Shown here: positions 13,931-22,400 of the stretch, in pieces
How positions within the stretch are numbered: the first letter of the stretch is position 1
Layout of the letters: each line of letters starts with the position of its first letter
Made by a program: the position numbers and the translations under genes
NCBI GenBank assembly: GCA_947175605.1
Contig: CAMWNH010000018.1
Span: 1 to 33,736 of the forward strand
DNA from: an uncultured Porphyromonadaceae bacterium
GTDB taxonomy: Bacteria; Bacteroidota; Bacteroidia; Bacteroidales; Muribaculaceae
Length of the DNA stretch: 33,736 nucleotides
Direction: 5' to 3'
The notes under the pieces: generated by a model
Told to the model about the DNA's origin: nothing
Database searches by the model: none
Seen by the model: the letters and a program-made list of their open reading frames with translations, nothing else

Positions 13931-13962
13931 TTTGCTCGGGGGTGAAAAAAATAGTATCTTTG
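13931..13962 (+). promoter_or_regulatory. Promoter of the RyR/FHA-protease/CHAT operon
   Basis: TTTG at 13931-13934 and TATCTTTG at 13955-13962, with a 20-base spacer: a full match to the Bacteroidetes consensus. The start falls near 13969, only about 12 bases before the ATG at 13982, so the leader is very short. It is the only promoter recognised for the six genes to 21183. Confidence 0.8.
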
Positions 13963-13981
13963 TGACAAACACGATTAAATC

Positions 13982-15142
13982 ATGTTGACAGTTCAAGAAA
14001 AATCAGTTGCGGCCCTTGTATCAGGCATGTTTCCCGAACAGGTGAATTTCGATTTCCGCGCTCCATTGCGTTATGGCAGCGGAAGTCATGTCCACATAAT
14101 TGTTGTCGGTGAAGGCCCTCTTGCAGAGGCATGGATGAAGATGTCCACTCTGGTGTGTCACTATCCGAATTACGAGCGTTCCCGGGAGATGTGTACTCGC
14201 CTCACATGGGTGGGTGTATCTCCGATGGAAGTAGATGAATATGTGTACGAACACCGTGAGTTCTTCGATAATTGTCGATGGCGTGTTGTGGATCTTTCGA
14301 AGGAGGAGATAACGACGAAGCTTCACAGACCGATGTATGAAGGGAGACGGAGTGATTTCGTTGATGTGGAAGTTGAGTTCGTCATCGGCCGATATACCAA
14401 TCGTATATTCCAGCAAAAGCTTGTTCGCTGGCAGATGGATCCGGAGCGGCAGCTAACAATCATATTCTGCGGACCCGACAGAGATAGGAATATGAGATAT
14501 GCCACGCATACGGCCAATCGGTTGCCGATAGGTTCGATGCCGGTGCAGATTCTGGCCTACGGGCCTGAAGGAGCCGAGGCAGCCGGTGTAAGATTCATCA
14601 GCGAGAATACAGACCTTGAGGGGCAATACGGCAGGATGATGGAAATGGCCAAATATCTCAACTATTTCTATAACGCAAGCTTTGAGATGAGGCACATACC
14701 CACGGAGTTGCCGCGCGATGAGGTTGAAAAGGCCTGGGAGGTTGTGAAAAAACCTTCGATACGTCTTTCCAATCTGTTCAACGTCCTGACTATGGCCGGT
14801 AAAATGCGGACGTTAGGACACAGTCGTGAGGATTGGAGGACCTTCTATGCTCTCACAGCCCGGGAAATCGAGGAAATGACACCTACCGAGCATAACCGCT
14901 GGAGCGTGGAGCGGCTTATGCAGGGGAGCCGTCCGTGCACGGACGCGGAACGCTCCGAGATTCTCAAAGATATGTCCTTGAAAAAGAAGTATAAGAATGA
15001 GCGTAACGCCCATTTCGATCTTGTGGCCTTTAATGAGCTTGGAGTGGACGAGACGGGCGAGAATGTGGCAAGATACGATAGCGATCTGATTGCGGCCATT
15101 CCGCTGATTGTGAAATCTTTCTCGGATTATGACAATGAATAA
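13982..15142 (+). CDS. Rossmann-fold plus RyR-domain protein
   Basis: A 386-residue soluble, probably cytosolic protein, first of the six-gene operon. The N-terminal half resembles a TrkA-N-like Rossmann domain: HVHIIVVGEGPLAEAWM (36-52) has a beta strand followed by GxG (43-45) and a helix. The central part (about 155-230) adds further alpha/beta segments, for example QLTIIFCGPD. The C-terminal 90 residues look like a bacterial RyR domain: EHNRW (303-307), then RLMQGSRP, HFDLVAFNEL (344-353) and YDSDLIAAIPLIV. RyR domains are known from ryanodine receptors and in bacteria often follow a Rossmann domain; a nucleotide-like ligand is suspected. No membrane segment or enzyme motif is visible. 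A ligand-sensing role is inference. Confidence 0.72.
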   Translation: MLTVQEKSVAALVSGMFPEQVNFDFRAPLRYGSGSHVHIIVVGEGPLAEAWMKMSTLVCHYPNYERSREMCTRLTWVGVSPMEVDEYVYEHREFFDNCRWRVVDLSKEEITTKLHRPMYEGRRSDFVDVEVEFVIGRYTNRIFQQKLVRWQMDPERQLTIIFCGPDRDRNMRYATHTANRLPIGSMPVQILAYGPEGAEAAGVRFISENTDLEGQYGRMMEMAKYLNYFYNASFEMRHIPTELPRDEVEKAWEVVKKPSIRLSNLFNVLTMAGKMRTLGHSREDWRTFYALTAREIEEMTPTEHNRWSVERLMQGSRPCTDAERSEILKDMSLKKKYKNERNAHFDLVAFNELGVDETGENVARYDSDLIAAIPLIVKSFSDYDNE

Positions 15143-16436
15143 GACAAAGCCGGTGTACTATTCTCTGAACCTGTCGGATGGCCGCGTGCTTACGCCCGGA
15201 GCCGGGAAGAGGGTAGTGATAGGGCAGGGGCCTGACGCCGACCTGCGTCTGTCTAATCCCGGCCCGTATGAGGAAATGGTTGTCGCCCGAGTTGAATCGT
15301 GCGGTCCCGGCAGATGGCGGCTCATCAGGCTTGGACGCGATTATCCAATTGCTGTGAACGGGCGAGATATTGCACATGTCCACTATCTGGAAGATGGCGA
15401 CTCGCTGGAGATTGGTGGTCTTGAACCGACTTTCCGCTTCCGGCTGCATGAGGGTGAGATTCCTCTTGACACAAGAATCGAGCATCGGACGCCCCGGACT
15501 TTGCTTCTCGCAATGTTCGCGGGAAGTATACTCGTGCTTGCAGGCCTGGTATGGTGGATGTCACGGATCACAGGGCGCGATGCATTGTCCGATGAGATGG
15601 TTGAGCAGGCCATGAGTGCCGTATGTCGAATTGAGGTTGATTCGCTGCTGTATTTCGAGGGTGATTCGCTGATTGAATATTACGCATACCCCTCACCACG
15701 CACAGGCACGGCTTTCCTGTGCACTGATTCCATGCTCGTGACAGCCCGTCATTGCGTCGAGCCGTGGCTGAATGCGGTTGTAGCGGAGGACATCCCGAAT
15801 GTTGCTTCAAGTAATGACCGGGCAGTTCAGCTTGCACTGAAAGCAGAGACGGCGGCGCAGCTTGCAGATGAAGACGACGCTCGGCATATGCTGATAAGTT
15901 CGTTTACGGTCACTGATTCGGACGGACGTGTCCGCCGTATGCGTTCGTCCGATTTTAAAATCGATCGTTCACGCGATGAAATAATTGAGCTCGGCGGATG
16001 GGACGAGGAGCTGTATTGGCGTAATATCCAGGCCAGGTATGAGGACGGTGAAATGATGCTTGGCGATGCCGTGACTTGCAGGTTGGATACTGCCGGGGCA
16101 ATTCAACTGGCTGACGCCGAGCTCGTGGCCAAGGAGCTGAAGCCTCGCCGTACTTTAAGTTTCCTTGGTTTTCCGCTGACACAAGGACACGATGAGACTC
16201 CCGAGCTTGAGAGCGACTACCTGCGCCAGCCGTTGCATGAACTGGACGGCGAAACGGGAATTTATATGATGCTGGCACACGGCGGCCGCCTTGCTCCGGG
16301 ATACTCCGGCGGCCCGGTGCTTATGCGTTGCGATGCTGCCCCGGCAGGTTTTGTTGCTGTGGGTGTTATCTCTGTACTTGACCGCACGAACGGGCATCGG
16401 TCATATTCAGTGCCTGTTACATCTATTCCAAGATAA
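15129..16436 (+). CDS. FHA-like / transmembrane / trypsin-like serine protease
   Basis: A 435-residue membrane protein with three parts. Residues about 10-107 resemble an FHA domain (VVIGQGPDADLRLSNP, IAVNGRDI, LEDGDSLEIGG), but the phosphothreonine-reading residues are altered: the Gly-Arg is GQ (32-33) and the Ser/His pair is missing, while NG (77-78) remains. A single helix spans about 124-143, preceded by RIEHRTPR, so the FHA part is cytosolic and the rest periplasmic. Residues about 157-435 are trypsin-like: TARHC (H208), GDAVTCRL (probable D313) and PGYSGGPV (S393), plus GTAFLCTDSMLVTARHC. The triad looks intact. Its start overlaps the previous gene by 14 bases; the ATG at 15135 is an alternative. 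No substrate can be named. Confidence 0.82.
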   Translation: MTMNKTKPVYYSLNLSDGRVLTPGAGKRVVIGQGPDADLRLSNPGPYEEMVVARVESCGPGRWRLIRLGRDYPIAVNGRDIAHVHYLEDGDSLEIGGLEPTFRFRLHEGEIPLDTRIEHRTPRTLLLAMFAGSILVLAGLVWWMSRITGRDALSDEMVEQAMSAVCRIEVDSLLYFEGDSLIEYYAYPSPRTGTAFLCTDSMLVTARHCVEPWLNAVVAEDIPNVASSNDRAVQLALKAETAAQLADEDDARHMLISSFTVTDSDGRVRRMRSSDFKIDRSRDEIIELGGWDEELYWRNIQARYEDGEMMLGDAVTCRLDTAGAIQLADAELVAKELKPRRTLSFLGFPLTQGHDETPELESDYLRQPLHELDGETGIYMMLAHGGRLAPGYSGGPVLMRCDAAPAGFVAVGVISVLDRTNGHRSYSVPVTSIPR

Positions 16437-16445
16437 TCAGACTAT

Positions 16446-17090
16446 ATGCTTATACATCAGGGAGAAAAATATACAATACACGCCGAACGCGGAGCCGACG
16501 GAACCCTGCGGGCTCTGAAAAGAGGTGTTGACGGAAGCTGCCGCGAGGAGAAGTTCTACCCGGAGCGCGACTGCTCGGCAATGGCCGGCGATACGGATGA
16601 GTATACGGCGTGGGAGATAATCCGCGATATTGCCGCGCAGCTGGATGAGGGATGTTTGGTGCCTGTTGAGCCGAGCCATATCATGATAGCGGGTTCGGGC
16701 AGTTTCGAGCTGTGTGAGTGGAGCCATAGTCATGATCCTCGGTTTACAGCCCCTGAAGGTTATGAGCCCATATGGGCTTTGGGAGCCTCGATTTTCTATC
16801 TGGTGCTTGGATGTCCGGTCTTCCAAGGCGGCGGTGGTGCATATCAACATGCCACAACGCCTGTGCCTATGATGCGCAGAAATGCGTCTGAACTTTCCGC
16901 GTTGGTGGGTAAGTGCCTTTGCTTTAAACCTTCCGACCGACCGTCAGTCAAAGAAATAAAAGCTGCGGCAGAGGAGGCGCTGAAGCGATTGGACAGTGTG
17001 CCGCCGGCCCGCGCCCTCAAACATAAGCAGCCCGGCTTAAGAAATGCGGTCGACAGCCTCGACAGCCTATGGCCGGAAAAGATGGTCTGA
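16446..17090 (+). CDS. Compact protein pseudokinase
   Basis: A 214-residue cytosolic protein that matches the C-lobe of Ser/Thr protein kinases. APE (102-104), IWALGASIFYLVLGCPVFQG (109-128), and RPS with its arginine (165) in KPSDRPSVKEI are clear. The N-lobe is very short, with RALKRG (K25) as the likely VAIK lysine. The catalytic loop is degraded: HRDLKPSNI aligns with LVPVEPSHI (71-79), so the catalytic Asp, Lys and metal-binding Asn are gone. DFG aligns with EWS (91-93). I therefore predict no phosphotransfer, and a scaffold or ligand-binding role. It lies 9 bases after the FHA-protease gene. A non-kinase explanation is possible but less likely, given the ordered C-lobe motifs. Confidence 0.7.
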   Translation: MLIHQGEKYTIHAERGADGTLRALKRGVDGSCREEKFYPERDCSAMAGDTDEYTAWEIIRDIAAQLDEGCLVPVEPSHIMIAGSGSFELCEWSHSHDPRFTAPEGYEPIWALGASIFYLVLGCPVFQGGGGAYQHATTPVPMMRRNASELSALVGKCLCFKPSDRPSVKEIKAAAEEALKRLDSVPPARALKHKQPGLRNAVDSLDSLWPEKMV

Positions 17091-17097
17091 AATACTA

Positions 17098-17730
17098 ATG
17101 GAAAAAGCAATGAAGAGAAGGAGTTGTATATTTGTGATTCTTGCACTTGCAGTCTTTTCCGGATACGCACAGGATGCGCGGATGAATGAGCTGATAGAAC
17201 TTGTCCGCGGCCTCAAGTCCGGTGGTCAGAAGGCCTTCGATGCTGCGGCGGAAAAGATGAGCACGGATCTGACATGGACGCCAATGAATGAGCTGAAGGC
17301 TTCCGATCCTAAAGCCGAATGCAGGGCTTCGGATCGTGTTCCGGGCTTTAAACTGAACAAGATGCTTGCTGCGGCTGAGCAGAAGCGCCGTTTCGAGGCA
17401 TCTACCGGAAACATGCTTAACGGCGAAAATCCAAACTTCAATTACTCGCTTTACGAACGCGGAATCAAGCCGATGTCTACTCTCGAGTACACATTAAAGG
17501 GTCGTTCGGGCGCACAGTGTATAGTGCTTATGCCATACGATGGTTTGAAGGCCTCGGACCTGGAGGTTAGTGTGAGTTGCGGCGGGAAGACGCTCGAGAA
17601 GACGTGCACTAAAGATGCATTTATTTTTACAGGTAAAGCGCCGCAAGGGCAGCCTCTGAAAATTACAATCAAGAATACAGGCGACAAGGCACGCTCCTTT
17701 GCCATCCTCAATTATAATTCACGCAAATGA
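17098..17730 (+). CDS. Small exported protein, unknown family
   Basis: I do not recognise the family. The ATG at 17098 (7 bases after the pseudokinase stop) gives 210 residues; ATG 17110 is an alternative. A signal peptide is clear: MEKAMKRRSCIFVILALAVF, with likely cleavage after GYA (residue 24). The mature protein has a helical first half (GLKSGGQKAFDAAAEKM) and a beta-rich second half, about residues 120-210. The latter ends with a strand pattern like a small beta sandwich (SGAQCIVLMPYDGLKASDLE, LKITIKNTGDKARSFAILNY), vaguely like pre-peptidase C-terminal domains. Two cysteines lie in the last 90 residues. It overlaps the CHAT gene by 4 bases (ATGA), so its product is probably made in step with it. 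Confidence 0.75.
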   Translation: MEKAMKRRSCIFVILALAVFSGYAQDARMNELIELVRGLKSGGQKAFDAAAEKMSTDLTWTPMNELKASDPKAECRASDRVPGFKLNKMLAAAEQKRRFEASTGNMLNGENPNFNYSLYERGIKPMSTLEYTLKGRSGAQCIVLMPYDGLKASDLEVSVSCGGKTLEKTCTKDAFIFTGKAPQGQPLKITIKNTGDKARSFAILNYNSRK

Positions 17731-19934
17731 ATCTGTTTCGGAAAATATTCGTGTCAGGAGTGCTCGTTGCCATAAGCTGTACCGGGGCTAATGGCTCGGA
17801 ATGCGCTATGCTTGACAGCCTTATCTCCGAGGCAAATCATGCATATCTGCTTGGGCAGAGAAGCCTTATCGCGGATTTGGTGGATAAGATCAGCGATATG
17901 ATTTATTATTCCACCGAACTCAACGCCGACGAGAAGGAGGGCTACAATGCCTCGCTGCAAAAGCTTGAAGGTAACGAGGCTTATCTCAGAGGCTGCGCAG
18001 ATGAAAATGACGGGACGGCCTTCCTGGAAGCTGAACGTTTTTATGAGATGGCGCAGTTCACTGATGCGCAGCGGTTTTCGACGGGCGCGCTTATCGACCT
18101 TGAGCTTGCACAGCTCTATTACAAACTTGAGAGATACTACGAAGCTCTGGAATGTATGGAGAAAGTGCTTGAGTACTATGATACCACACAAATCTACGAG
18201 CCCGGCGACAATGAATGGAACTCGGCGGAGATGCAGAAGGCAATTATTCTTGCGCGTCTTGGTCGTGGTGCGGAAGCGAGAGCACTCGCGAAGTCCTCAA
18301 TTGATTCATACAAGGATAAGAAGAACATCGAGTATGGACGGGCCAGCAGAATGTATGCCAAGATTATTGGTCTAACTGGATCAGACCGGCGTGAGGCTCT
18401 GAACGCATACAAGGAGTACTTCGCTCTCCAAAAGGCGGATGCGCTTGAGCGTTTTGCTGAGATGGATTCGAAGGCAAGGGAAGAGTATTGGATGATGATT
18501 CGCCCCTTCGTGACGGATGCGTATGCACTTGAAGATGCTGATCCGGCTTTTCTTTACGATCTGACACTGTTTGCCAAAGGCCTTCTCCTACAGCTCGATG
18601 CGCGAAATGATTCCGACGGACGTCCGACGCGTAAGAATCTTGAATCGCTGACCCTTAGCTGGAAAGATATCCGCTCCAAACTGAAAAAGGGTGAGGCTGC
18701 AGTGGAGTTTATTCAGTATCAACCTTTCGGAAGCTCGGAGCCGGCAATGGCCGCTCTTGTGCTTCGTCCCGGTAAGGCGCCGGTGTGGGTGGCGCAGCCT
18801 GCGCCTGCGCGCTTTGAGAAGCGTTTCGGACCTCTGATCGACGACGGCATGCGCAAGACGAAGGACATGGTTTATGGTGATCCGATCTTGCCCGGCTTGG
18901 TATGGACGGAGGAGCTAATGAAGGAGCTTTCGGATGTGAATACGATTTTCTTCGCGCCTGACGGTCTGTATCATACGCTTGCAATCGAGTATCTTCTGCC
19001 GGATTATGGTCCGCAGGCGCGCCGTCTGACTTCTACCCGGCGTCTCATGGATCGCGGTTCCCGAAAGCTTGCCTTTGATGCAGGCGAGGGTATGCTCCTT
19101 TTCGGAGATATTGATTACGACTGCACTCCCGGAGAGGAGGAAGGCGCTGACAATGATTTCCGCGCCTATGTCGAGTTCATGAACTACTCTTTTCCGATGC
19201 TTGATGCCGATACGGACGAGGCCCGGAAGATTGCAATCATGCGCAATAATCCGGCAGATGCCCGTCAGCGCGGCATCTTCGCAACGGAAGGTAGTTTCCG
19301 ACGTCTCGCAGGCCGTTTTCCATCCGTCCTTGTGAGCACTCACGGAGTGTCCCTTTCTGCTAACTCACACCGCAATTACAGCTCGGATCTGAAACCGGCG
19401 GTGGAAGACGACGTACTGTCCACAACTGTGCTGAGCTTTACGAGTGTCAATCCTATTATTCGGGAGTATGGAAGCAGGGCGCGAACGCACTACGACGGGC
19501 TTGTATCAGCGCGCGAACTGGCCTCGCTCGACCTTTCGAAGTGTAAACTTTTCACGCTGTCAGCGTGTCAGACAGGCCTCGGTGAGGTAACGGCCGACGG
19601 CGTGTATGGTTTGCAACGCGGGTTGAAGAATGCCGGAGCCGGGGCGATGCTCGTGAGTCTGTGGAGCGTGCAGTCGGATGCCACCGCACGACTTATGACA
19701 TCCTTTTATCGCCGTCTGAATGAAGGAGAAGGCCTTCATGATGCATTCCGCGGCGCACGCCTCGACCTCAAAGCCGGATCTATCCGAGACGAATCCGAGA
19801 CGTCGCCTGCAGGCTCGAGCTTGTTTTTCAATCCGGCAACGCTTGCGGGTGGCTATCTCTTGGATGACTACGTACCGGATTATGATTTCCCGCAGTACAC
19901 GGATGCGTTCATACTCATTGACGCAATAGACTGA
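17727..19934 (+). CDS. Exported TPR-CHAT (caspase-like) protease
   Basis: A 735-residue protein with an N-terminal export signal (MNLFRKIFVSGVLVAIS), cleaved probably after ANG (residue 23); C18 could instead be lipidated, though the lipobox is poor. Residues about 30-290 are helical with TPR-like repeats (LAQLYYKLERYYEALECMEK and neighbours). The C-terminal half is a CHAT domain, a caspase-fold peptidase. Histidine is in VLVSTHGVSL (H539) and cysteine in LFTLSACQTGLGEV (C614), followed by GLQRGLKNAGAGAMLVSLWS, the usual family block. The His/Cys dyad therefore looks intact. It is the largest gene of the operon. CHAT proteases are mostly intracellular effectors, so an exported one is unusual. 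Substrate and trigger are unknown. Confidence 0.85.
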   Translation: MNLFRKIFVSGVLVAISCTGANGSECAMLDSLISEANHAYLLGQRSLIADLVDKISDMIYYSTELNADEKEGYNASLQKLEGNEAYLRGCADENDGTAFLEAERFYEMAQFTDAQRFSTGALIDLELAQLYYKLERYYEALECMEKVLEYYDTTQIYEPGDNEWNSAEMQKAIILARLGRGAEARALAKSSIDSYKDKKNIEYGRASRMYAKIIGLTGSDRREALNAYKEYFALQKADALERFAEMDSKAREEYWMMIRPFVTDAYALEDADPAFLYDLTLFAKGLLLQLDARNDSDGRPTRKNLESLTLSWKDIRSKLKKGEAAVEFIQYQPFGSSEPAMAALVLRPGKAPVWVAQPAPARFEKRFGPLIDDGMRKTKDMVYGDPILPGLVWTEELMKELSDVNTIFFAPDGLYHTLAIEYLLPDYGPQARRLTSTRRLMDRGSRKLAFDAGEGMLLFGDIDYDCTPGEEEGADNDFRAYVEFMNYSFPMLDADTDEARKIAIMRNNPADARQRGIFATEGSFRRLAGRFPSVLVSTHGVSLSANSHRNYSSDLKPAVEDDVLSTTVLSFTSVNPIIREYGSRARTHYDGLVSARELASLDLSKCKLFTLSACQTGLGEVTADGVYGLQRGLKNAGAGAMLVSLWSVQSDATARLMTSFYRRLNEGEGLHDAFRGARLDLKAGSIRDESETSPAGSSLFFNPATLAGGYLLDDYVPDYDFPQYTDAFILIDAID

Positions 19935-19956
19935 ATGAATTAATACACATCAATAT

Positions 19957-21183
19957 ATGACAAGATTATTTAGACTGACAACGGGCATATTGCTTTCAGC
20001 AGGCTTTATGCTACCTTCGATGCCTGCCGTGGCCCAGGGTGCGACTGAAGTCGACACCTGGGAGGTGTCCGTGAAAGAAATGGATCCGCATATGCGCGAC
20101 CGTATCTCATCGACTATGCGCGAACTGAAAGGTACGTCCGATGACCGAGGTATTATCTCGGAAATCGGTCAGGCAGTTGGCTTCGGTCTCGTGAGCTCTG
20201 CAGTGGATATTGTAGTTTCCGAGACAATAAACCTCGCCCAGATGCGTAAGCGCCAGAAGCGTGAGTGGCAGGCAATGATAGACAAGGAGAATAACTACAC
20301 GGACAGCATCACGAGTATAAAAGGCCTGAAGGATTTCTACGCCAAGAATTCGGAGCTGGGCGCTCTCGACCCATCGGACATCAACTTCAACGGCATTGAA
20401 ATTCGCGGCATGCGCAATGGTAAGGAGGTTATCTACATGGCCTGCAGCATCGACCGTTCGAAGCTCGACAATCTTTTCCGTCACAGCAAATTCAATCTTG
20501 TGCTGGACACCATGGCTTTCTATCCCTATTCATGCCACCTTCCCAATGTTGCGGCCAACGGCATTCGCGTGATGAAGGAGATTAAGAAAGAGAAGTCGCG
20601 CGTTGAAGGCGACACCATCCTGCGTCCGGGAGGCAATGGTTTCTCCTTCGAGGAGCGAGAGAATCTGCGAGTGGGGATAGATTTCGATCTCACGTCGTCA
20701 TGGATAAATGAGGCTGTGCAGGTGCATAGGGATGTAGAGCTGGGCAACTTCAGAATCTCGGTGAACATACCTGATAATGTCACGCGCTATACGTATTCGC
20801 GCAACGAAATCCTGTCGAAGGCTGAAGCATTGCCCGAGAGTGAACGTCAGGCCTTCCTCGCTCGGAATCTCGTGGGTGTGGAAGGCGAGTGTTTCGTTGT
20901 TCCGCGTTCATTCATGCCGCTTGACAACGGCAAACGTATGTGGGGCACGGGCGAATATAATATCAAAGTCAAGGTGCGCGAGCAATGTTCCTTCGCACCC
21001 GGAAGCGAGAAAGCCCGCAAGTGGCGCGAGGACTATGCACGCATGCGCAAGATGCAGAACCGAAGCAACGAGGTTCAGGAATATTTCGAGACGCTCTGGA
21101 ATCAGCAGGGAATGAATATTGTGAAGAATTCATATAAAACCGTGCTGACAACGGGTCTCAAGCACTATAAGTTGATGAAATAA
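19957..21183 (+). CDS. Exported protein, unknown family, last gene of the operon
   Basis: I do not recognise the family. It is 408 residues, starting at ATG 19957, 22 bases after the CHAT stop. A signal peptide is visible (MTRLFRLTTGILLSAGF; cleavage after AVA, residue 26). The mature N-terminal part is charged and helical (DPHMRDRISSTMRELKG). A glycine-rich hydrophobic stretch, IGQAVGFGLVSSAVDIVV, at about 68-85 could be an amphipathic or membrane-touching helix. The centre and C-terminus are mixed alpha/beta with strands such as FNLVLDTMAFYPY. No cysteine or histidine arrangement suggests an enzyme. It could be a partner, substrate or localisation factor for the upstream proteases. Confidence 0.75.
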   Translation: MTRLFRLTTGILLSAGFMLPSMPAVAQGATEVDTWEVSVKEMDPHMRDRISSTMRELKGTSDDRGIISEIGQAVGFGLVSSAVDIVVSETINLAQMRKRQKREWQAMIDKENNYTDSITSIKGLKDFYAKNSELGALDPSDINFNGIEIRGMRNGKEVIYMACSIDRSKLDNLFRHSKFNLVLDTMAFYPYSCHLPNVAANGIRVMKEIKKEKSRVEGDTILRPGGNGFSFEERENLRVGIDFDLTSSWINEAVQVHRDVELGNFRISVNIPDNVTRYTYSRNEILSKAEALPESERQAFLARNLVGVEGECFVVPRSFMPLDNGKRMWGTGEYNIKVKVREQCSFAPGSEKARKWREDYARMRKMQNRSNEVQEYFETLWNQQGMNIVKNSYKTVLTTGLKHYKLMK

Positions 21184-21187
21184 AGAA

Positions 21188-21225
21188 CAACCGGGTGCGG
21201 TCCTCAAATGGGGCGCACCCGGTTG
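21188..21225. terminator. Terminator at the end of the six-gene operon
   Basis: A perfect 12-base stem CAACCGGGTGCG / CGCACCCGGTTG, with a 14-base loop that can pair further. It sits between convergent genes ending at 21183 (plus) and 21247 (minus). The T-rich side is on the minus strand, so it may work in both directions. Confidence 0.88.
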
Positions 21226-21246: not shown

Positions 21247-22092
21247 TTATTCAAGGAAAGCCTTGCCGGCTGGAGTCATATACTGCGAGAGCTCCTGGGG
21301 GTAGAATGCTGCGGTGACAGCACCTGCAGCCATGCTCGAAACTTCGCCCTGCTGGTATACGAATACGATACGGCCTTCATAGTCGACGTAGTAGCTGCCG
21401 GTCTGGGGGAGTGCGGTTACCTCGGCATCGGCATTGGTCTGCTTGACGCGTTCGGCAATGACTGCGGGAAGTTCCTTGATGCCTTCAGCCGTGAATACGT
21501 CATCAAGATTCATTACCTTCTTAGCCGTGAAGTCGTAGTTGACATAGCTGATAACGGATTCTCCGTTTGCAGCATGTACGGGATAAGTGTAGGAAGCTAC
21601 TGCATAGGAAAGAACTCGGGGCGAGAGGGAGGCAACGGTACCTGAGATATTCATGAAGCCGTCAGCTTCCATGATGCCTACGTCTTCCTTAGCTTCTTCG
21701 ACAGCGCCATAGCCCAGAGAGTCGGCAACGCTCTTGAAGTATGCTTCGACAGCCTTTTCGCAAGGCTTGCTTACCTGACCGCCGGTAGCAGCGTTCATGA
21801 TAGCTTCGCGGAGAACAGCTACATCAGCATCCTCGATCGAGGTGGGCATCATGAGGCTGGCCTTTGCCGTGAAGGTAGCGTTATGATCCATGCTGAACAA
21901 GGTGTCAGTGCCGGGAATCGTGTATGTCTGTTCTTCGTCGAAGGTCTTGAATGCAATGCGGGTGTCTTCAGCCTCGCAGTTTTTTGTGCAAGCTTCTTTC
22001 TCGTTCTGTGTCGAACATGAAGATGCGGCGGCACCGAGCAGAAGAGTAAGGGCGCACGCTGCGTAAACGTGGATACGGTTTTGAATTTTCAT
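21247..22092 (-). CDS. DUF3298-type (RsiV-like) lipoprotein
   Basis: A predicted lipoprotein of 281 residues. The signal ends in LLLGAAASSC (C26, a loose lipobox). The remaining sequence resembles DUF4163/DUF3298 proteins such as RsiV and PdaC relatives. There is a beta-rich N-terminal part around residues 45-160 and a C-terminal DUF3298-like part with SVISYVNYDFTAKKVMNLDD (about 179-198) and GRIVFVYQQGEVSSMAAGAV. In other bacteria this fold binds lysozyme or acts with peptidoglycan enzymes; no such role is proven here. It is a single gene converging on the plus-strand operon. I found no clear promoter box upstream. Confidence 0.8.
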   Translation of the reverse strand: MKIQNRIHVYAACALTLLLGAAASSCSTQNEKEACTKNCEAEDTRIAFKTFDEEQTYTIPGTDTLFSMDHNATFTAKASLMMPTSIEDADVAVLREAIMNAATGGQVSKPCEKAVEAYFKSVADSLGYGAVEEAKEDVGIMEADGFMNISGTVASLSPRVLSYAVASYTYPVHAANGESVISYVNYDFTAKKVMNLDDVFTAEGIKELPAVIAERVKQTNADAEVTALPQTGSYYVDYEGRIVFVYQQGEVSSMAAGAVTAAFYPQELSQYMTPAGKAFLE

Positions 22093-22254: not shown

Positions 22255-22286
22255 TTTGGAGATATGGAAAAAATGTACTACCTTTG
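22255..22286 (+). promoter_or_regulatory. Promoter of the tRNA-His gene
   Basis: TTTG at 22255-22258 and TACCTTTG at 22279-22286, with a 20-base spacer: a full Bacteroidetes consensus. The predicted start is near 22293, about 20 bases before the mature tRNA. Confidence 0.82.
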
Positions 22287-22313: not shown

Positions 22314-22388
<75 letters not shown>

Positions 22389-22400
22389 CTGAAACAAAAA

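Follow-up and report, generated by a model that had tools for sequence, protein, structure and literature searches.

Six tightly packed genes on the plus strand of a 33,736-nt stretch of contig CAMWNH010000018.1, from an uncultured Porphyromonadaceae bacterium, define an undescribed conserved system of gut and rumen Bacteroidales, even without a role in defence. In the following, the window is this whole stretch, the genes are named g1 to g6 in operon order, G000 is the window's own genome, G033 a genome of the same genus, and L numbers denote loci of relatives. The open reading frames (ORFs) fill positions 13982-21183, and the ORF listing confirmed to the base the successive distances given by an earlier, sequence-only reading (a 14-base overlap, 9 bases, 7 bases, a 4-base overlap and 22 bases), with g4 starting at the ATG at 17098. 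All genes and domains of the operon lie on the plus strand. The first gene, g1 (13982-15142), encodes a cytosolic protein of 386 residues with a Rossmann/RCK-like region and a divergent, C-terminal RyR-like domain (14867-15139; EHNRW ... AHFDL ... RYD), and is a candidate nucleotide sensor. The 435-residue product of g2 (15129-16436) combines a degenerate FHA domain (15213-15416), in which IGQ replaces IGR and SxxH is missing, with one transmembrane segment (15498-15563; N-side inside by charge) and a trypsin-like protease domain (15681-16433; His208, Ser393 and the candidate Asp283 or Asp313). A pseudokinase of 214 residues is encoded by g3 (16446-17090), consisting of the C-lobe only, with HRD and DFG lost and an LWPEKM-type C-terminus.

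The remaining three genes encode exported proteins. The 210-residue g4 product (17098-17730) has a helical part followed, by eye, by a beta-rich part. The 735-residue g5 product (17727-19934) is a TPR-CHAT, caspase-type protease with its CHAT domain at residues 397-687 (18915-19787; Pfam CHAT 1.8e-34). CHAT proteases rely on a catalytic His/Cys pair, here His539 and Cys614. The 408-residue g6 product (19957-21183) belongs to a family without a significant Pfam or PDB relative. Of the domains named in the sequence-only reading, CHAT was found directly by Pfam. FHA (0.0027), Trypsin_2 and the Pkinase C-lobe fall below the Pfam cut-offs in the window copy, and each passes the cut-off in at least one relative. 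The RyR call was not backed by Pfam and rests on motif, profile comparison and relatives. PADLOC gave generic matches to the protease part of g2 (RT-Protease_XI, 5e-6) and the kinase part of g3 (mad6, 5e-7). Searches of Pfam, NCBIfam, PADLOC and PHROGs returned nothing significant for g1, g4 or g6. A PDB sequence search gave nothing usable for g1, g2, g4 or g6, weak kinase C-lobe matches only for g3, and a TPR match only for g5. Regardless of any defence role, the system thus contains two exported families, g4 and g6, without a significant database relative.

A perfect match to TTTG-N20-TAnnTTTG, which we take to be a Bacteroidales-type promoter pattern, lies at 13931-13962 on the plus strand, exactly where a promoter had been proposed. 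It is the sole match within or just ahead of the operon, none lies inside, and the window holds four matches against 0.31 expected from shuffles. A strong hairpin between convergent genes at 21188-21225 (-31.6 kcal/mol, z -4.6, none of 200 shuffles equally stable) has the position and strength claimed for it earlier; its assignment as the operon's own terminator is less well supported. The terminator listing has no plus-strand terminator-like site at 21188-21225, and on the minus strand it gives a smaller stem overlapping the hairpin's left arm, with the T-rich tail GTTCTTTATT. Because the T-rich tail appears only on the minus-strand read, the hairpin is probably better explained as the terminator of the convergent gene at 21247-22092, or as a two-way terminator. 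The flanks are minus-strand housekeeping genes, as described before, except for a tRNA-His gene downstream of the operon and one short, doubtful plus-strand ORF. The Pfam families among 25 flanking proteins scanned include glycine cleavage P, T and H, chorismate synthase, FtsK and rubrerythrin, hence ordinary metabolism and cell division, and the PADLOC models SspH, PD-T4-2_B and mad8 match ordinary-looking genes there. A further Bacteroidales-type promoter match (22255-22286) stands ahead of the tRNA-His gene (22315-22389).

Conservation and architecture of the six-gene unit

A family-level search with g6 found a match in 24 of 397 sampled genomes of the family, its own included. A scan of GTDB contigs yielded 161 g6 relatives, of which the best 80 were kept as loci. 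With nine repeats removed and earlier loci added, 25 non-redundant loci carrying g1 make up the cassette set, the window excluded. Dropped before gene order and neighbours were counted were the nine repeat loci, loci of at most 12 kb without g1, L013-L020, L061-L065 and the window. The loci are mutually related and not independent, and their genes come from our own gene caller, in which some starts are probably wrong, affecting the counts of export signals. The genes g2, g4, g5 and g6 are each present in all 25 loci with g1. A g3 could be recognised in 22 loci, standing alone in 12 and joined to g4 in 10. The order 1-2-3-4-5-6 is kept in 22 loci and reads 5-6-1-2-3-4 in two, while L106 carries a TIR gene between g4 and g5; g1 stands first of the six in 23 loci. 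This neighbourhood comparison had been set beforehand as the test of whether the six genes travel together, and they do; homologues scattered without a shared neighbourhood were not what we found for the cassette, though g5-g6 pairs are widespread without g1-g3. All ten pairs of distance matrices among g1, g2, g4, g5 and g6 correlate (rho 0.47-0.76; 0 of 300 permutations). G033 carries all six genes in identical order, with shared flanking genes and 60-87% identity, and its orthologues indicate purifying selection (nonsynonymous divergence pN 0.10-0.31, synonymous divergence pS 0.70-0.79, zero stops).

Carriers of the cassette include Muribaculaceae, Prevotella and Bacteroides, among them the isolates Bacteroides ilei Marseille-P3208 and Prevotella sp. 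tf2-5. The g1 profile was found in four genomes of a 395-genome phylum sample, its own genome included and the remaining ones partial, and the g2 profile in seven of a 295-genome order sample, again with its own genome. The combination had been put forward as one without a known name. Neither Pfam, NCBIfam nor PADLOC holds a model naming a system of this type, and we found no literature description of the six-gene operon or of an exported CHAT-g6 pair, in a search whose coverage is thin for subscription papers and in which absence is not proof. In an empty-site comparison, 39 of 49 genus genomes had a match to the downstream gene; among the 28 loci retained from genomes besides G000 and G033, not one had rubrerythrin within about 1.5 kb. 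Mobility is unproven because g6 had no match in a plasmid collection and g1 none in a phage collection at the limits used.

The layout of g2 and g5 proposed from the sequence alone is well preserved among relatives. One transmembrane segment separates FHA and trypsin in all 26 g2 copies, and the charge bias between its N-side and C-side (K/R 75 against 54, D/E 26 against 72) places the FHA domain inside. An export-like N-terminus occurs in 22 of 26 g5 copies. In all 25 loci the catalytic residues of both proteases are intact: His539 and Cys614 are invariant in g5, and His208, Ser393, Asp283 and Asp313 are retained in g2, where either Asp could be catalytic. The joint of the g3-g4 fusion is hydrophobic in all 10 fused copies, which provides a second physical path across the membrane. 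Taken together, the six genes very probably form a transmembrane protease unit. A CHAT gene lies within two genes of g6 in 71 of the 75 evaluable loci (of the 80 kept), mostly without g1-g3, and small g4-like exported proteins stand beside g5-g6 pairs in L077 (6e-5) and, by eye, in L079, L082 and L083. Judging by these free-standing pairs and their g4-like companions, the exported core would seem to be g4-g5-g6, with g1-g2-g3 adding cytosolic control.

Two side observations concern additional proteins. L083 (9596-15763) encodes a g4-like protein, a TPR-CHAT protein and g6, followed by a sub-threshold CHASE2 protein (3e-4) and a small exported protein. An exported-looking protein of about 220 residues is encoded 10-54 bases upstream of g1 in L069/L109, L095, L096, L099, L101, L103 and L107; the L096 copy has a sub-threshold PPC match (0.0014), and the protein is a possible seventh member.

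The RyR-like domain of g1 and its genomic neighbours

Phage proteins with RyR domains bind or cut 2' and 3' cyclic ADP-ribose (cADPR), according to the accessible part of a 2026 preprint (PMC13232231). The same part describes the founding member, RyDEP, as acting through H75, W78, H100 and D117, which contact cADPR or ADP-ribose (ADPR), with H75 and D117 as the catalytic pair. In g1, H304, W307, H344 and D366 correspond in order to these four residues and are invariant in the alignment of all 25 loci. In hhalign, the g1 C-terminus scored 26.6 against the RyR profile, while the remainder of g1 reached 19.7 and the best of 150 column shuffles 20.7. With a profile made from canonical RyR neighbours, one g1 was matched at 0.007 and a channel relative at 9e-5. 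Two canonical RyR genes, L013_05 and L017_07, have the exact RyDEP spacing of 3/22/17 when counted by eye. The family extends beyond the cassette. Homologues of g1 include channel-like proteins with an RCK part in the same order (L013 matches Slo-like_RCK at 4.6e-4, below cut-off) and soluble proteins beside genes that look MscS-like by eye. The C-terminus of g1 looks like a diverged RyR domain, judged by residues and profiles, and nucleotide sensing by g1 seems to us about evenly balanced between true and false. The g1-type receptor family seems to be split between members that gate channels and members that gate proteases, depending on the genome. If this is right, it becomes possible to test directly which nucleotide bacterial RyR-type receptors bind.

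The surroundings of the cassette were compared with 52 control loci that carry g6 without g1. The fetched stretch contains a TIR gene in 13 of the 25 cassette loci and in 3 of the 52 controls (p 9e-6), as found with a TIR profile built from Pfam-checked and similar segments with a best-domain choice. After clustering, the counts are 11 of 18 against 3 of 24 at 70% identity (p 0.002) and 5 of 6 against 3 of 11 at 50% identity (p 0.05). A TIR passes the Pfam cut-off in 12 of the 13 TIR loci, L108 being judged by our own profile alone, as were the TIRs of the three control loci. All 13 TIR proteins submitted to Pfam passed the TIR_2 cut-off, as did genome matches at L069 and L084. Separate RyR-type genes accompany 10 of 25 cassettes against 1 of 52 controls, or 4 of 6 against 1 of 11 after clustering at 50% identity (p 0.03), counted with a profile built partly from RyR genes of the same loci and including two neighbours below the Pfam cut-off (L081_01, L090_01). 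The controls include at least three apparent cassettes truncated at a contig end or at the edge of the fetched stretch (L093, L100, L104), and because L104 counts as a TIR positive and L100 as an RyR positive among them, the contrast is if anything understated.

The neighbouring TIR genes lie upstream, inside or downstream of the cassette and comprise membrane-anchored, SIR2-TIR and TIR-FGE kinds. Such varied positions and kinds suggest repeated association. Several of the proteins carry a membrane segment behind the TIR domain. A membrane segment is also present in the TIR protein of L106, whose gene fits almost without gaps between g4 and g5. Four TIR matches lie on further contigs of the window's genome. 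Two neighbourhoods have an unusual composition. Upstream of the cassette, L081 (362-6420) encodes a membrane protein whose C-terminus is a sub-threshold RyR match (0.006), a SIR2-TIR protein and an nSTAND1 NTPase-glycosyl hydrolase 25 fusion. Directly upstream of g1, L094 (1839-3348) carries two genes, one sigma-factor-like by eye and one encoding a fusion of RyR (9e-29) with parts that look, again by eye, anti-sigma-like and C39-like.

A candidate signalling chain and its alternatives

We suggest that g1 might bind a nucleotide of the cADPR or ADPR type derived from nicotinamide adenine dinucleotide (NAD), made by the TIR enzymes that are often neighbours. In the window's genome, such an enzyme would need to act from elsewhere. 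Ligand-bound g1 would then act on the cytosolic, degenerate FHA domain of g2 and on the pseudokinase g3, both serving as scaffolds and not as phosphate readers. The change would reach the other side of the membrane by way of the g2 segment and of g3-g4, a single polypeptide in many relatives. Outside, the g2 trypsin domain and g4 would activate the exported protease g5, of caspase type, and g5 in turn would act on its usual partner g6, a probable substrate or effector. The output would likely be an envelope-level response, for example self-killing, or remodelling, when phages attack or damage occurs. We infer the order of cleavage and assume that the signal runs from cytosol to periplasm; all functional statements that go further than residue conservation and gene neighbourhood are likewise inferences. 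If the proposal is right, one bacterial operon would connect RyR ligand sensing as in animals with TIR signalling and with execution of the caspase type, the execution step being placed outside the inner membrane. We know of no described bacterial immune or death pathway with execution there.

Several observations weigh against this proposal. No TIR was found among the window's called genes, and 12 of the 25 cassette loci have none in the fetched stretch. PADLOC defence families number 14 among 115 cassette neighbours and 17 among 115 control neighbours (a random draw from a longer list), hence no excess. PF02026, the Pfam RyR family, gave no match to g1 at E<=1 and none to the three cassette relatives of g1 that were scanned. 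The probability stated by hhalign for the g1-RyR comparison is just 28%, despite the score beating all 150 shuffles. The four ligand residues of g1 are spaced 3/37/22, wider than the 3/22/17 of RyDEP, and the second histidine is missing from L066_07, a canonical RyR neighbour. By a simple test, export-like N-termini are missing from 4 of 26 g5, 8 of 26 g6 and 5 of 16 separate g4 copies, some maybe through start-codon errors. Because there is no PADLOC excess and many loci come without a TIR gene, we keep our grading of the unit and of g1 sensing apart from that of the complete chain, from nucleotide sensing by g1 through the proteases to an envelope-level output, which we hold tentatively, at somewhat short of an even chance. 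The most specific version, in which a TIR-made NAD-derived signal reaches a soluble RCK-RyR receptor borrowed from ion channels, then a relay of dead kinase and FHA domains, and finally a periplasmic trypsin-to-caspase-type cascade whose partner g6 acts on the envelope, is possible and on the doubtful side. A general defence-island reading was rejected, given PADLOC counts similar to those of the controls.

The lack of a defence-family excess is what would be expected if the unit served envelope physiology or stress instead of phage defence. The signal might then run from outside to inside, with the exported g4, g5 and g6 sensing the envelope, the cytosolic part reading out, and the RyR-like pocket binding an ordinary adenine nucleotide. 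The setting amid housekeeping genes in G000 and G033, the membrane segments of several neighbouring TIR proteins, and the widespread g5-g6 pairs without g1-g3, several of them beside ordinary genes, fit such a role as well. However, the association with TIR and RyR genes points to NAD-type signalling used in immunity, and the patchy presence of g6 across the family is unlike core physiology, so that we consider an envelope function unlikely. In another reading, g1 is an off-switch and not a sensor, removing cADPR-type signals of neighbouring TIRs by RyDEP-like hydrolysis or by sponging. The residues of g1 that match the catalytic pair H75 and D117 are indeed invariant, but g1 heads the six genes in nearly all loci, fusion of its relatives to channel-like membrane parts, or their position beside MscS-like genes, is a receptor arrangement, and nearly half of the loci offer no TIR in the fetched stretch. 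An off-switch appears quite improbable.

The sequence-only reading had RyR, pseudokinase and FHA read a cytosolic ligand or partner state, which was taken here as a phospho-relay in which FHA and kinase read a phosphorylated partner. Both folds are present, but phosphothreonine-binding FHA domains carry an Arg after the core Gly plus SxxH, and active Hanks-type kinases carry HRD and DFG. The residue after the core glycine is Q, E, D, H or N in all 26 g2 copies and never Arg, and the SRxH stretch is gone. HRD and DFG are absent, by eye, from all 23 aligned kinase copies; even L090_05, which retains more of the N-lobe, reads HLE and SGFG. With both domains dead by their residues, the phospho-relay was rejected as very improbable. 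Distant relatives also speak for it. All three g2 relatives in L062-L064 retain Arg and SxxH, and those in L062 and L064 stand beside intact-looking kinase and PP2C-like genes. The FHA and kinase domains seem to be two halves of an older phospho-circuit, kept as scaffolds. A chance run of unrelated, co-transcribed genes could appeal to the other contexts in which g5-g6 and g1-type proteins each occur. The co-occurrence in all 25 loci, the fusions, the rotated order with unchanged content and the congruent divergence refute it in practice, leaving it a negligible chance. Separately, L061, L062 and L064 hold clusters of intact-looking kinase, PP2C-like and FHA genes, and L062-L064 also canonical FHA-TM-trypsin genes; the L061-L064 clusters are apparent ancestors of g2-g3.

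Relation to described systems

In type IV Thoeris, a TIR protein makes N7-cADPR and thereby activates a caspase-like protease, according to the available part of its description (PMC12847820). The logic we propose, from a NAD-derived signal to a caspase-type protease, is similar, and TIR genes accompany about half of the cassette loci. Unlike in type IV Thoeris, g5 has an export-like N-terminus, with the inner membrane between it and the sensor, and the cassette adds trypsin, FHA, pseudokinase and g6. By analogy, the six-gene unit may work like type IV Thoeris. It is not a member, because the cassette contains no TIR gene and its CHAT protease looks exported. The TPR-CHAT layout of g5 is also that of Craspase (type III-E CRISPR TPR-CHAT/Csx29), in which a partner protein is reportedly encoded next door to the TPR-CHAT gene, a further likeness to the cassette. 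Unlike Craspase, g5 has an export-like N-terminus. PADLOC found no Cas7-11 or CRISPR families among the six cassette and 25 flanking proteins, and Craspase membership was rejected with no such genes beside the TPR-CHAT gene.

Proteins joining FHA and trypsin domains were catalogued in 2008, for example NP_811686.1 of B. thetaiotaomicron with two FHA domains (accessible part of PMC2605481). As in that protein, FHA is N-terminal to trypsin in g2. The operon setting with RyR, pseudokinase and CHAT distinguishes g2, as the accessible part of that catalogue mentions none of these for NP_811686.1 (PMC2605481). RyDEP, the R12 (RyR) proteins of phages and the B. thetaiotaomicron RyR protein 3NRT share with g1 the four ligand residues in order and, as proposed here, the RyR fold; canonical RyR genes near several cassettes add to the likeness with the RyR/R12 family. 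Unlike RyDEP and 3NRT, g1 is diverged, has longer spacers, is fused to an RCK-like Rossmann part and is missed by PF02026.

Relatives of g1 outside the cassette occur in RCK-channel-like systems (L013, L016, L018) and MscS-like systems (L017, L019), which contain the same g1 family with a canonical RyR gene beside the g1-type gene or within two genes of it. Their output would be an ion channel, whereas in the cassette it would be a protease relay. L013 (7685-10223), L016 (944-3254), L018 (9893-12435) and L101 (12108-14141) encode channel-like proteins that combine an RCK-like part with a C-terminus resembling g1, and those of L013, L016 and L018 directly adjoin a canonical RyR gene of about 96 residues. 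In L019 (9136-11389) and L017 (8083-10291), a gene that is MscS-like by eye precedes one for a soluble g1-like protein, and the two may form a nucleotide-gated channel pair; the L019 series continues with a canonical RyR gene.

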